Part shown: positions 8,434-19,568 of the stretch, piece after piece | Position numbering within the stretch: position 1 is the stretch's first letter | Layout of the letters: every line of letters starts with the position of its first letter | Notes under the pieces: model-generated | Told to the model about the DNA's origin: nothing | Seen by the model: only the letters and a program-made list of their open reading frames with translations | The model's database searches: none | Assembly: GCA_002839285.1 (NCBI GenBank) | Contig: PGXT01000055.1 | Coordinates: 1 to 37,845 of the forward strand | Origin: Spirochaetae bacterium HGW-Spirochaetae-5 | GTDB taxonomy: Bacteria > Spirochaetota > UBA4802 > UBA5550 | DNA length: 37,845 nt | Direction of reading: 5' to 3' | Program-made: the position numbers and the translations under genes

Positions 8434-8451
8434 TAACCGCTATGGCGGTTA
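8434..8451 (-). terminator. Hairpin at the stop codon of the PAS/receiver gene
   Basis: A 7-bp perfect stem (TAACCGC / GCGGTTA, loop of 4) has the TAA stop codon of the upstream gene inside its first arm on the minus strand. No T-run follows, so it may protect the mRNA 3' end rather than terminate by itself. Confidence 0.45.
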
Positions 8452-10305
8452 TACTTTTACCAGGTTAACATTTGAAATACCTTTGATCAGATCCTCGATG
8501 TTGAATGGTTTTGCCATAAACAGATCTATAAAACCGGTATACCCTTTCAGATCAAGCGTCCACCCGGAAAGAAGAATAGTAAGAGTACCCTCACTTATCT
8601 CTTTTACTCTGGCGGAGAGTTCAATCCCTGTAAAACCTGAAACATCATAATCGGTAATTACAATATCATAATTTTTACGTTTAAATTCCTCAAAAGCATC
8701 GCTGCCGTTATCGGTAATAAAAACACGGTTACCCATCCTTTCAAATAAGTTACCCAGAATCATCTGAAGAGCCTTCTCATCTTCAACAATCATAATATCT
8801 TTATCTTCAATAATATACTCAGGCTCGCCATTAAGCCCCTTGACGTTTTCAACAATCAGTCTCTGGGGAAAAATTATTTTAATAGAATACTGCTCAACAG
8901 ATTCCTCTTCAAGTATTTTCAGATTAAGTTTTTCAGCGGCATTTCTTATTTCAGACGGGGAGAGCCCATCAAGAGTAAATGGAACGATATTATCTTTATC
9001 GAGCCCATTCTGTTTATTTACTGAAACTGTAAAATGAATAAAAGAGGATTTCTTTAATTCAACTTCAATCTGCCCCTTTTTGCCGGCATAAGCCGATACT
9101 TTTAAAATTGCCCATATGAGAAGTTCCCGTAGAAATCCCGTATCTGTCTTCACTATCATTTCAAATCCGGGAATTTTCTCAATAGTGATTGTTCTTCTCT
9201 TCTTCCCCTCTTCTACTTTAAAATGAATTTTTGCAAACTCTATTGCATCATTCAGAATATTTTCAAAAGGCTCTTCTCTCTCTTCAAATATATCATTTTT
9301 TTCATTAATAAATCCGAGGATTCTTCTAAGCTGATCAACAACCTCATGAACGTATTTCTCAATCTGTTTTAAACCATCATAAACAGAATCCTTCTCGGTC
9401 ATAATCTGCAGCAGCTGAGTCTGATTCAATATTACATTAACAGTATTATTAATTGAATGTATAAATCCTTTTCCAATATCACTTACAAGATTCAGTCTTT
9501 TTGCAGAACTCAACCGCTCCTTCAATTCTCTGACTCTGGTAATATCCTCCATAATAAGATCTATAGCAACAATTTCATTCTCTCTTAATACAGGATAGAT
9601 AATTACATTAACAATTTTTTCATCACCCTCTCTGCTTCTTACTTTGATTTCACCGATTCGTTTAAATGGAATATTCCCTTTCAGTATCTCTACAATATGA
9701 TTCTTAATCCTTTCCGAGTCATATTTAAAAAGAGTACTTATCCCTGCTGTGTCTTTCGACAGCTCATCCATATTGTAGCCAAGCGTGCCCTCAAAGGATC
9801 TGCTGCACCTCAGTATTTGAAGTTCTCTGCTGAATCTCATAAGCGGAAGGGGGGAGAATTCATAATGACTTGAGTTTGAAAATTCATCGTGTCTGCCGGC
9901 GGAGGGTCTGTTCACCATTCTTGCTTCATCAAGAACCTTGATCTGTATCAATACCTGCTGAATAATACCATTATCAGAGACAGGCTGCATAAAAATTTCA
10001 ACCGGAATAGCTTCATTTTCAGGGGTTTTAACCTCAACCTCGCAGCTGGAAAAAGCTCCGTTGAAGGCTTTGACGAAGGTCTGAGCTACCCACTTTTTGT
10101 GTTCACTGTTAAAAACATTGGGCCAGTCAAATTTCCGTTCACCTGAGTCGATACCGAAGAACTGCATGAAGGAGTTATTGGCGTATTCCAGAATACTTTT
10201 AGAAGTAATGATACACGCCGGATATAAAAGATGATTGAGGATGTCATTATTATAAAAAACGGGAGATTTTTTATCTCCCGTCTCTATTTTATGATTTTGA
10301 ATCAT
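8449..10305 (-). CDS. PAS-PAS sensor protein with degenerate kinase core and receiver domain
   Basis: This is a soluble hybrid signalling protein. Residue numbers here count from a TTG at 10314. PAS domains are at about 28-125 and 150-265. A HisKA-like helix has H286 in GFIHSINNTVNVI. A C-terminal receiver domain (about 505-615) has acidic E511/D512, the phospho-acceptor D555 in ITDYD, Ser583 in LLSGW and K602 in AKPF. The region where HATPase_c should be (350-485) lacks a recognisable N box and the DNGxG and GxGLGL boxes, so autokinase activity is doubtful. I prefer the ATG at 10305, which has AGG 9 nt upstream. It follows the COG3014-type gene closely and has no membrane segment. Confidence 0.85.
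   Translation of the reverse strand: MIQNHKIETGDKKSPVFYNNDILNHLLYPACIITSKSILEYANNSFMQFFGIDSGERKFDWPNVFNSEHKKWVAQTFVKAFNGAFSSCEVEVKTPENEAIPVEIFMQPVSDNGIIQQVLIQIKVLDEARMVNRPSAGRHDEFSNSSHYEFSPLPLMRFSRELQILRCSRSFEGTLGYNMDELSKDTAGISTLFKYDSERIKNHIVEILKGNIPFKRIGEIKVRSREGDEKIVNVIIYPVLRENEIVAIDLIMEDITRVRELKERLSSAKRLNLVSDIGKGFIHSINNTVNVILNQTQLLQIMTEKDSVYDGLKQIEKYVHEVVDQLRRILGFINEKNDIFEEREEPFENILNDAIEFAKIHFKVEEGKKRRTITIEKIPGFEMIVKTDTGFLRELLIWAILKVSAYAGKKGQIEVELKKSSFIHFTVSVNKQNGLDKDNIVPFTLDGLSPSEIRNAAEKLNLKILEEESVEQYSIKIIFPQRLIVENVKGLNGEPEYIIEDKDIMIVEDEKALQMILGNLFERMGNRVFITDNGSDAFEEFKRKNYDIVITDYDVSGFTGIELSARVKEISEGTLTILLSGWTLDLKGYTGFIDLFMAKPFNIEDLIKGISNVNLVKV
10254..10281 (-). terminator. Terminator-like hairpin inside the 5' end of the PAS/receiver gene
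   Basis: On the minus strand a perfect 9-bp stem ACGGGAGAT / ATCTCCCGT with an AAAAA loop is followed immediately by six T's (one within the stem). It covers about codons 12-20 of the downstream gene. It has the form of an intrinsic terminator or attenuator for the lpoB/COG3014 transcript. Confidence 0.65.
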
Positions 10306-10392
10306 TATTTTCAACCTGTACCCTAATAAAGCGTTCTCAGGTTTACCACTGTCTTTTCTCCCTTTTTTATTTCAACTTCTTTTTCCTGACGA

Positions 10393-14464: not shown

Positions 14465-14577
14465 ATTTATTTTCAGGGATGCGCATGCTTTGCATACGCC
14501 GGAGATGGGGGACTACGGGGGTGTAGACCACGTAATCCCCCATCTCAAGCACTGCGCCAGGCGCTGTGATATTTATG
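14465..14577 (-). repeat. Family A cloverleaf repeat, copy 2 (reverse orientation)
   Basis: On the minus strand it reads CACAGCGCCTGGCGCAGTG, then a central 16-bp arm with one mismatch (14502-14517 with 14531-14546), then GCGTATGCAAAGCATGCGC and CCTGAAAATAAAT. It is the same layout as the copies at 8303, 29876 and 36943 but flipped. It lies in the divergent gap between the NUDIX gene and the sensor gene. Confidence 0.8.
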
Positions 14578-14600: not shown

Positions 14601-15800
14601 ATGACAGAACACGAAAAAGTAAAAATAAAAAGAGTAATATTCCCCGTGGGGGTATTTCTGCTGATGTTTACAGCGCAGTCAATTCTTGGAACAGCAGGGG
14701 TTATCTCGTATTTCTATTATTCCGGTAAAAAGAATATCTCTGAAATTGAAAACTATACAACAAACTACTCTAAAACCATGGCAGAGGCCTTTGCGAGAGT
14801 TGCCGAATTCAGCTATACAACAAAAAAATACACATCGCTGAAAACCCTCTTCCATGAAAAGATTGAAGAGAATACAATTGATGAAGCTTTTTTCGTTCTG
14901 AATGACGGCAAATTAATTGTCCATTCCAGCACAACTGCTGAGAAAGAACTGATGTGGAATATCGCCAATGATGAAATGGCCTACAATATAGATATGATAC
15001 TGCTGCCGGTTCAGACAAAAAACAGTGATCTTATAGTAAATAATTATAATATAGTAAACAAAACCGTTCCATTCAGCAGACGGGATCGGGAACTTCTGAA
15101 AAAATACGTTTACAAAAACCTCACGAGTACCGGATGGATTTTCACCAAAGGTATTTTCCCTGGAGGTAAACCTGCAGGTACGGTAAATTTTATAATCAGT
15201 AAAGACCGAATTTATGGTTCAATTCAAAGTACTATCGATCAGGCAAAACACTATACTTTTCTTGTAATAACTGTTTCAGTTTTTTTATCTTTCTTTGTTT
15301 CACTATTTGTACTTTTCAGATACCGTTCCATACAGAAGAATGCCCTTAATTCAGCTGAATACGGATATGCGCCATCAGCGCCCGGAACGGCTGCATTATC
15401 TGTAAAAACAGCGGATAAAACTGACGATGACGATGAAGTAATGTTCTTCCCCCCTGACAGTAATTTCATAGAGCCGACTATGGATTTCATTATAGATGAT
15501 GATTTTGATGAAAATATAGTGGAAGAGGATGGAACAATTGTTTCCGCGGAGAGTTTTAGAAATGCACGTAACACAGACAAAGTAACTCCGCTCAGAAAAC
15601 ATGATATAGAGAGCGAAGAGGACGAATATATAACCGTAGAACTTCTCGGAGAAATTGAATCTGAACCGGAGGATGAACTGCCGGAAATTCTGCCCGAAAC
15701 AGTAAAAGAGTATATTGCTCCAGTAATAAACCTGAAAGATTATAAAAAATCGATTAATAAAGAAATAAGGGACGCGATCCCTATCCGGAAAAAGAGGTAG
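14601..15800 (+). CDS. Two-TM membrane sensor-like protein with acidic cytoplasmic tail
   Basis: I do not recognise a named family. Membrane segments lie at about 13-40 and 213-240, with roughly 170 residues between them that should face the periplasm. Their pattern of helices and strands resembles a Cache-type sensor domain. The cytoplasmic tail (240-399) has no kinase, HAMP, GGDEF or methyl-accepting domain. It is instead very acidic (DDDDE, IDDDFDE) and looks disordered. The stop is 2 bp before the STAS gene, so the two are probably one signalling unit. CAGGA lies upstream of the ATG. Confidence 0.75.
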   Translation: MTEHEKVKIKRVIFPVGVFLLMFTAQSILGTAGVISYFYYSGKKNISEIENYTTNYSKTMAEAFARVAEFSYTTKKYTSLKTLFHEKIEENTIDEAFFVLNDGKLIVHSSTTAEKELMWNIANDEMAYNIDMILLPVQTKNSDLIVNNYNIVNKTVPFSRRDRELLKKYVYKNLTSTGWIFTKGIFPGGKPAGTVNFIISKDRIYGSIQSTIDQAKHYTFLVITVSVFLSFFVSLFVLFRYRSIQKNALNSAEYGYAPSAPGTAALSVKTADKTDDDDEVMFFPPDSNFIEPTMDFIIDDDFDENIVEEDGTIVSAESFRNARNTDKVTPLRKHDIESEEDEYITVELLGEIESEPEDELPEILPETVKEYIAPVINLKDYKKSINKEIRDAIPIRKKR

Positions 15801-15802
15801 AG

Positions 15803-16492
15803 ATGTTTTTTATAAACCATACAGATATCGGTGAAGGTTCCGCCGCAATTATTGAAATAGAAGGTCCTCTTAATAGTGATTCCGCACCCGATTTTGATGA
15901 TTATGTAAGCAAACTTGCGGACAATAATGTTATCCACCTCCTTCTAGACATGAAGAATCTCGATTTCATAAGCAGCGAGGGGATTGGAGCGGCTCTTATG
16001 CTTCAGAAAAGCATTAACAGCAGGAATGGAGCAGCTGTTTTCTTCAATCTGAATTATGAAATTACCTCTCTTTTCAAGCTCCTGGGATTTGACAGATTAT
16101 TTACTATAGCTTCCGACCGGGCCGATGCACTTCAGATCCTTGACAGACATATGGAGCTGTTTCAGAAAGATAAAACAGATCAGAATTCCGGAACAGCAGG
16201 CGGAAATACCTTTACCGCATTCGATGATGAATACTCTCTGCCTGACAGCGGATTTTCTGAATCAGATTCAGAGTCATTTACCGTAATTGAAGATATAACA
16301 GATGATACTACAGAGGATGATGATATTCTAACCGTTGATGAAAAAGACGAAACCTTTATTATCGAGTGTGTTAAATGCAGATCACTGATAAGAATTAAAG
16401 AATCGGGTGACCAGCTCTGTCCACACTGCAGTGCTGAATTTACTGTTACAGATGATAAACAGGCAGTTTTCAGAATAAAAGAGATTCACTAA
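15803..16492 (+). CDS. STAS domain protein with C-terminal zinc ribbon
   Basis: Residues 1-118 form a STAS domain like anti-sigma-factor antagonists. LLLDMKNLDFISSEGIGAAL holds Ser57/Ser58 at the usual phospho-acceptor position. An acidic low-complexity linker (120-185) follows, then a zinc ribbon with Cys189, Cys192, Cys206 and Cys209 (two CxxC pairs). No RsbW-type kinase or PP2C phosphatase is beside it. The ATG is preceded by GAGGTAGAG overlapping the end of the upstream gene. The role is inferred to be a partner-switching regulator linked to the two-TM protein. The zinc ribbon suggests contact with nucleic acid or another protein. Confidence 0.86.
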   Translation: MFFINHTDIGEGSAAIIEIEGPLNSDSAPDFDDYVSKLADNNVIHLLLDMKNLDFISSEGIGAALMLQKSINSRNGAAVFFNLNYEITSLFKLLGFDRLFTIASDRADALQILDRHMELFQKDKTDQNSGTAGGNTFTAFDDEYSLPDSGFSESDSESFTVIEDITDDTTEDDDILTVDEKDETFIIECVKCRSLIRIKESGDQLCPHCSAEFTVTDDKQAVFRIKEIH

Positions 16493-18433: not shown

Positions 18434-19568
18434 ATGAATCTACATGACAGCCTGATCCCCTTTGATCAGATGAAAAATCAGATTGAATCCGCTTTAGTCC
18501 GTTTATCCGAAAGTGCAGAAGGGGCCGTCCCGCTTACTATAGAATTCCAGAAAGGGATCTCACGGATCAAAGCGGGGATTCCGCCGCTCACAGACATTAT
18601 ACTTTTTGACTCGCTTGAAATTATAAAAAAACATATTGAGAATATAAGAATACTCTCCTTCGAGAAAGGCCATTACAGCTTTCAGTCTCTTAACAGCAAT
18701 GTGTTTAACACGGAAAATATTACAGACAACCTGAAGATTGACTTCTTCAGCATTGTAAATTCATTTATTGAAGTAACAAAAAAAGGGAACCTCTCCCAGG
18801 AGGAGATCAATTCAGTAATTGAGATAATCCGAAATGTAAACTCAGGCCAGCTGTTCAACCCTGCCGACAGACTTAAAGAACTCGGCGCGACAATAATGAG
18901 CGGTGAAAACACTCCCGACTGGGATTAATCAAAGAATCGATAATACTCCCAGTTCAGAATCCCGATGTCTATGATTCAATTGCCGGAATGACAAGAAAAA
19001 GTTTTGAAACTAACAGGCCGAAGGCGATACTATTCGAAGGCCCGCCGGGGGTTGGTAAAACTACCGCAGCAAGAATCATCGCAGGAGAGAGCAGTCTCCC
19101 CCTTGTCTATGTACCGGTGGAATCAATTATGTCCAAATGGTACGGCCAGTCTTCAAAAAATCTGGCCGAAATTTTTGACATGTGTGACCTCATGGGTGGC
19201 GCAGTTATTTTTCTTGATGAAATTGATTCACTGGCAGGATCAAGGGATCAGAACATGTTTGAAGCAACGAGAAGAATACTCTCAGTACTTTTGAGAAAAC
19301 TAGATGGCATTGATTCAGCAGAAAAGACTCTGACCATCGGAGCAACAAACCGGATGAACGATCTCGACAGCGCCCTCCTTAGCAGATTTGACCAGATAAT
19401 AAAATTCCCATACCCGAACATTGAAGAGCGTGCTGCAATTTTCAGTAACTACAGCTGGCGGAGAGAAGATGGGCAAGAAGACTTATTATTCAAAAAGCGG
19501 AAATTGTTCCGCCCCCTTTCGACTACTACAAACAGTCCATTCAATTATGGAAAAATTCCATAATCTGA
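18434..19568 (+). pseudogene. AAA+ ATPase, broken by two internal deletions
   Basis: Three consecutive pieces make one AAA+ protein. The N-terminal helical domain (18434-18928) ends at PDWD, exactly where such ATPases continue with a D-I-x-G-L-x-x-V-K segment. That segment is missing. The AAA core then resumes in another frame from about 18929 (LIKESIILPVQNPDVYDS). It has Walker A EGPPGVGKTT, pore-loop-like SKWYGQSS, Walker B AVIFLDEID and the sensor GATNR. After RAAIFSNYS the helical lid is missing and a third frame supplies AERRWARRLIIQKAEIVPPP... to a TGA at 19566-19568, a typical C-terminus for this type. In the current reading the core would stop at 19563 with an unrelated tail. A 36-codon reading from an ATG at 19469 also exists but is probably chance. 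Confidence 0.8.

Follow-up and report, generated by a model that had tools for sequence, protein, structure and literature searches.

A partner switch is usually defined by its kinase and its phosphatase. How would a switch protein be governed in an operon that encodes neither? This question is raised by two genes of Spirochaetae bacterium HGW-Spirochaetae-5, located in a 37,845-nucleotide stretch of contig PGXT01000055.1, which as a whole is termed the window below. A gene for a membrane sensor is followed on the same strand, after a gap of 2 bp according to the ORF calls of the window, by a gene for a protein made of a STAS domain, a linker and a zinc ribbon. A first-pass annotation, made from the DNA letters alone, had singled them out as a module devoid of kinase and phosphatase. 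The module is real. Both ORFs were confirmed, and no kinase or phosphatase gene was found among the neighbours adjoining the pair. The features that matter for the argument are as follows.

14601..15800, + strand: ORF of the membrane sensor, 399 aa
14634..14690, + strand: first transmembrane helix (TM1), about residues 12-30 of the sensor, within predicted helix 16-74 (hydropathy and model)
14823..15203, + strand: periplasmic Cache-like domain, residues about 75-201 (AlphaFold model, Foldseek, alignment)
15249..15323, + strand: second transmembrane helix (TM2), about residues 217-241 (hydropathy and model)
15363..15764, + strand: acidic cytoplasmic tail, probably disordered, residues about 255-388 (pLDDT mostly <65)
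15765..15785, + strand: conserved C-terminal motif IRDAIPI, general form hydrophobic-x-[DEN]-A-[IVLY]-x-hydrophobic
15803..16492, + strand: ORF of the STAS-linker-zinc-ribbon protein, 229 aa (ORF and Pfam STAS)
15839..16129, + strand: STAS domain, SpoIIAA/RsbV-like, residues 13-109
15974-15976, + strand: Ser58, aligned with the phosphorylated serine
16130..16366, + strand: acidic linker from STAS domain to ribbon, residues about 110-188
16367..16471, + strand: C-terminal zinc ribbon, Cys189/192/206/209 (TIGR02098 above cut-off; alignments)

The sensor begins with a short cytoplasmic N-terminus, crosses the membrane through TM1, displays a periplasmic Cache domain, and returns through TM2 to end in a long, low-complexity tail. 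In the AlphaFold model two long helices, with an alpha/beta domain between them, make up the core (pLDDT >95), after which comes the low-confidence tail; a Cache/PDC fold is thus predicted between two transmembrane helices. The best structural matches are the extracellular Cache (PDC) domains of WalK/YycG (Foldseek hit 4ywz, TM-score 0.75 by target), which have the same fold as the periplasmic domain. Unlike WalK/YycG, however, the sensor of the window has no kinase or other output domain after its Cache domain. A Pfam search assigned it no domain at all, Cache models included, and a sequence search for relatives of solved structure returned only weak chemoreceptor matches and chance ones. His108 is invariant in an alignment of 53 sequences from several families of the phylum.

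The STAS domain of the second protein, judged by its sequence, belongs with those of SpoIIAA and RsbV: it matches PF01740 at 2.8e-13 and, among PDB profiles, SpoIIAA at 4.5e-19, far better than it matches MlaB, while TIGR00377 gives 53.2 bits, slightly below its cut-off of 53.45. As had been claimed from the letters alone, the protein does end in a four-cysteine ribbon (C189-C192-C206-C209, with the CxxC...CxxC spacing), which scores 24.2 bits against TIGR02098 for a cut-off of 20.9 and is predicted to bind zinc; the four cysteines are invariant in two alignments, one of 41 STAS-ribbon proteins from the order of the window, the other of 31. The ribbon shares this four-cysteine pattern with the MJ0042-type zinc finger that TIGR02098 describes, but here it is fused to a STAS domain through a variable linker. 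In five loci of the family of the window (L071, L072, L079, L082 and L083), the STAS protein carries two zinc ribbons in tandem.

Adjacency of the two genes across spirochaetes, which the first-pass annotation had named as a point to check, proved to be widely kept. The sensor was searched for in 59 related genomes, 46 from the order of the window and 13 from other orders. It is present in 44 of the 46, always in single copy (the two genomes lacking it are incomplete assemblies, at 72% and 66%), and a single-sequence search found it in none of the 13. The STAS gene lies beside it in 44 of 44 cases; being adjacent in every sensor-bearing genome of the order, the pair cannot be put down to chance. 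At the 41 loci inspected in detail, spacing goes from a slight overlap to a gap of 11 nt. A survey of the phylum, in which a profile of the sensor was run over 393 spirochaete genomes and the loci were then read, gave 36 further loci with the pair in six other spirochaete families (f11, f22, f34, f38, f41 and f46). A scan of contigs with the single protein as query found no loci, and the same scan with nine close relatives as queries found 23, of which 22 are titled spirochaete and one 'uncultured bacterium'. The genes downstream of the pair change from family to family (queF in some, for example, or a gene for a coiled-coil protein), and only the pair itself is constant; gene neighbours were therefore rejected as a clue to function.

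What is kept, then, in the tail of the sensor? It had been remarked that this tail and the linker of the STAS protein are similar in composition. In the window both are indeed acidic, with 27% of D+E in the tail and 32% in the linker, but this acidity is not conserved in the relatives and was discarded as a functional link. In some sensors TM2 and the motif are as little as 12 residues apart and in others as much as 147, and acidic residues make up anything from 0 to 33% of what lies between, so that acidic character is not what selection keeps. The conserved element of the tail, as alignments have it, is rather the C-terminal motif, which the first-pass annotation had missed. It is present in all 41 of the 41 sensors of the order, and nearly all distant sensors have it in forms such as ILDAILVE, VVDAIYLD or NIIDALPLD. 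A regular expression written for it matches within the final 30 residues in 77 of 79 sensors, but in no more than 6 of the 1,063 other ORFs at these loci. In a strict form, searched as DNA, the motif has a single occurrence in the genome, which is in this very sensor gene; a loose DNA pattern, applied across the order, remained at chance level when compared with reversed controls and is uninformative.

The most instructive comparison comes from cousins of the pair. The idea that the STAS protein goes without an RsbW-type kinase of its own does not hold throughout the phylum, as in three families (f10, f28 and f18) such a kinase and a Cache-HAMP-SpoIIE protein flank the STAS-ribbon protein. In f18 (genome G056, locus L148), a relative of the sensor has HAMP and SpoIIE domains (PF07228, 7.8e-41); the STAS-ribbon gene follows, and the gene of an RsbW-type kinase comes next with a 4-nt overlap (PF13581, 1.2e-25). 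The same order of genes is found in f10 (G060 and G106; L220 and L222) and in f28 (G071 and G088; L218 and L219). Since an RsbW-type kinase stands beside it in three families, the STAS-ribbon protein belongs to partner switching. In f9 the STAS-ribbon gene is accompanied by a phosphatase only; in f8, f16, f21, f24, f25, f33 and f40 neither a sensor nor a kinase was seen to be encoded next to it, and in two of these families, f16 and f25, the gene that comes after it encodes another STAS protein, without a ribbon. By contrast with these cousins, sensors of the type found in the window have neither HAMP nor SpoIIE, their operon lacks a kinase gene, and they end in a variable, flexible tail with a conserved end motif. 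SpoIIE/PP2C is absent from the sensor of the window, and only in other families is SpoIIE fused to related sensors.

The profile of the sensor reaches the Cache regions of the SpoIIE proteins, and those additional matches away from the pair that were checked with Pfam were Cache-HAMP-SpoIIE proteins. A common origin of motif sensors and SpoIIE sensors would fit this result, although the Cache domain is generic and the similarity modest. In a tree of 96 STAS-ribbon proteins, a single branch (SH-aLRT 99) separates 78 that are paired with a motif sensor from 18 that are associated with SpoIIE/RsbW or solo. One change of arrangement suffices on this tree, against 16.8 in shuffles, although the tree contains near-copies and proteins of shared ancestry, so that clustering is expected. 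The tree is unrooted, and loss of the phosphatase in one lineage and its gain in the other would both fit; the motif-sensor arrangement and its SpoIIE/RsbW or solo counterpart are, at least, both old and stable. As a separate observation, the RsbW-type proteins of L218, L219, L220 and L222 have E-W-S-A-N in their N-box, are missing the DxG customary in the ATP-binding box after it, and have a G1 region that looks non-canonical by eye; they may be weak or inactive kinases.

That the two genes form a rewired version of a partner switch seems to us somewhat probable: the Cache sensor would hold or release the STAS-ribbon protein via the motif of its tail and not act by dephosphorylation. A periplasmic signal would alter the Cache sensor, which, through its motif, would capture or free the STAS-ribbon protein at the membrane. 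Capture would set the amount of free STAS-ribbon protein able to bind a cytoplasmic target; this may be an anti-sigma factor of the RsbW type or some other effector, after the fashion of the partner switches that control diguanylate cyclases. The zinc ribbon, carried on its own flexible linker, would be the likeliest module on which either the motif or the target docks. A kinase whose gene lies elsewhere may phosphorylate Ser58, a step that would not be required in every lineage. Three points of this reading are inferred: that the motif binds, that the ribbon holds zinc, and what the STAS-ribbon protein acts on downstream. A hint comes from a fusion model of locus L104, where the two genes are in frame and 9 nt apart, built by reading through the stop codon of the sensor (40 aligned rows). 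Here the motif forms two short strand segments (pLDDT about 66 for the block, <50 for its flanks), in contrast to the coil modelled for it when the sensor is taken alone; the matches of the STAS part are SpoIIAA and RsbV, and confidence in the ribbon is about 91. Contact between motif and STAS-ribbon protein is no more than suggested here, as the fusion tethers both artificially and confidence in the motif is moderate. A bolder version of this reading, which we put forward only tentatively, sees a partner switch independent of kinase and phosphatase altogether: the sensor would have as its sole output a flexibly tethered docking peptide at its C-terminus, which would capture or release the STAS-ribbon protein and would replace SpoIIE/RsbW control in several spirochaete families, relatives of Leptospira included.

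It may be, instead, that ordinary partner switching takes place in trans, with an RsbW-type kinase of the genome phosphorylating Ser58, a SpoIIE phosphatase reversing the reaction, and the sensor merely helping, for example by recruitment to the membrane. The serine, predicted to be phosphorylatable, is kept throughout the order (41 of 41 STAS-ribbon proteins) and in 90 of 96 overall, which favours a phospho-switch. Enzymes are plentiful too. The first-pass annotation was right that the RsbW-type kinase is missing from the operon, but incomplete as regards the genome, which has 33 matches above cut-off to SpoIIE phosphatases and 28 to RsbW-type ATPase domains (PF13581). Many of the latter are part of longer proteins, histidine kinases for instance, but among them are also small stand-alone RsbW-like proteins encoded on C271, C131 and C99. 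Against this explanation, kinase and phosphatase never adjoin a pair of the kind found in the window, a cognate RsbW-type kinase being found neither beside that pair nor beside any other of its kind that was examined. Furthermore, the serine is replaced by Gly or Asn in 6 of 13 proteins of f34, and five of these six adjoin sensors that keep the motif or something close to it: with the phospho-serine lost in 6 of 96 proteins, phosphorylation is not needed in every lineage. A cognate kinase encoded in trans was also sought with a profile of the f10/f28/f18 kinases and this candidate was rejected, as the order has no consistent orthologue; matches of any kind were seen in 33 of 46 genomes, and several of the best adjoin a different, ribbonless STAS gene. 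This lack of a steady kinase partner counts against the rewired switch as well. In the genome itself, the closest relative of the cousins' kinase is that of C271 (G000, L001), which already has its own STAS partner, in a separate operon of STAS (118 aa) and RsbW (139 aa) genes followed by that of a large membrane protein. On balance, we regard switching in trans as unlikely.

Considerably less credible is the view that the motif is a signal for degradation or localisation of the sensor, unrelated to a STAS-ribbon protein that would be merely co-transcribed. To be sure, the motif lies near the C-terminus, usually with 1-5 residues after it, and conservation by itself names no partner. Yet the STAS gene accompanies the motif-tailed sensor in every genome examined that has such a sensor, as many as 19 residues can separate the motif from the C-terminus, unlike what a free-end degron would show, and in its strict form the motif is unique to the sensor gene in the genome. 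Finally, we hold it to be highly improbable that the STAS-ribbon protein is an adaptor of an envelope machine (MurJ or peptidoglycan synthesis), comparable to MlaB, and not a regulator of transcription or of a second messenger, for although a murJ-like gene comes after the pair in f34 and in one f11 genome (L202, L209, L211-L214 and L234), often with a 4-nt overlap (a possible envelope link in these lineages), and an LpoB-like gene is near the pair in the window and in many relatives, the MurJ link is missing elsewhere, where queF or the coiled-coil gene takes its place downstream, and the STAS domain is much closer to SpoIIAA than to MlaB.

How does the rewired switch that we favour compare with known systems? 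Its components are of known kinds: Cache sensor, STAS antagonist and MJ0042-type ribbon. With SpoIIAA/SpoIIAB/SpoIIE and with RsbV/RsbW/RsbU-RsbP, the STAS protein of the window has in common the phospho-serine motif and the structural match to SpoIIAA/RsbV, and the STAS-ribbon protein of f10, f28 and f18 likewise has a SpoIIE phosphatase and a kinase of the RsbW type as neighbours. The operon of the window differs from these systems in lacking both enzymes, in its non-catalytic sensor, and in the linker and zinc ribbon placed after the STAS domain. In proteobacteria, SiaABCD and HsbA/BgrV demonstrate that a STAS-type switch can control a target other than a sigma factor, a diguanylate cyclase for example (PMC8457831). 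In contrast with the present pair, those systems use a phosphatase (SiaA) and a kinase (SiaB). We know of no zinc ribbon or motif-tailed sensor in either of them. Within open-licence papers, no description was found of a STAS-zinc-ribbon protein, whether in connection with partner switching or with spirochaetes, nor of the motif, nor of a phylum-wide alternation between a phosphatase-sensor with its kinase and an enzyme-free motif sensor.

Across the phylum the switch protein persists while kinase and phosphatase come and go, and a short motif in the tail occupies the place of the phosphatase domain of the cousins. Should the STAS-ribbon protein prove to be what the motif binds, this would be a compact case of a signalling output shifting between catalysis and docking, and a testable function could be given to an unnamed conserved pair, including the LIC_12071 family of Leptospira. 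This family (NF047550, 'LIC_12071 family protein') is uncharacterised, with no function or partner described. The sensors of f11 resemble its members, scoring 252-304 bits (303.9 at best) without reaching the cut-off of 350; the sensor of the window, at 15.6 bits (E 0.0075), is well below that cut-off and aligns weakly, if collinearly. LIC12071 itself figures in one study as a hypothetical protein that is raised 2.1-fold when L. interrogans is host-adapted (PMC3953431).

The surroundings of the pair deserve a few remarks in their own right. Between a NUDIX gene and the sensor gene lies an imperfect inverted repeat (14502-14546, with 19-nt arms and a 7-nt loop). Further upstream, at 8449-10314 on the - strand, the window encodes a protein with two PAS domains, an unassigned region and a receiver domain; relatives of this PAS-PAS-receiver protein are found upstream of the pair at about two dozen loci, with the gene of an LpoB-like lipoprotein in between. 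Downstream, at 18434-19563 on the + strand, an AAA-ATPase gene is broken up into ORFs of 164 and 191 aa that do not share a frame, and it ends early, while in relatives it is one ORF of about 414-426 aa; frameshifts or assembly errors would account for the split. In families other than f1 (L084 and L090-L107), a conserved coiled protein of about 190 aa is encoded some 30-160 bp downstream of the pair. It ends in FF(R/K)DNFPGGEY and has no Pfam match, and after it, on the opposite strand, comes the gene of a protein of about 910 aa that resembles class I adenylate cyclase.
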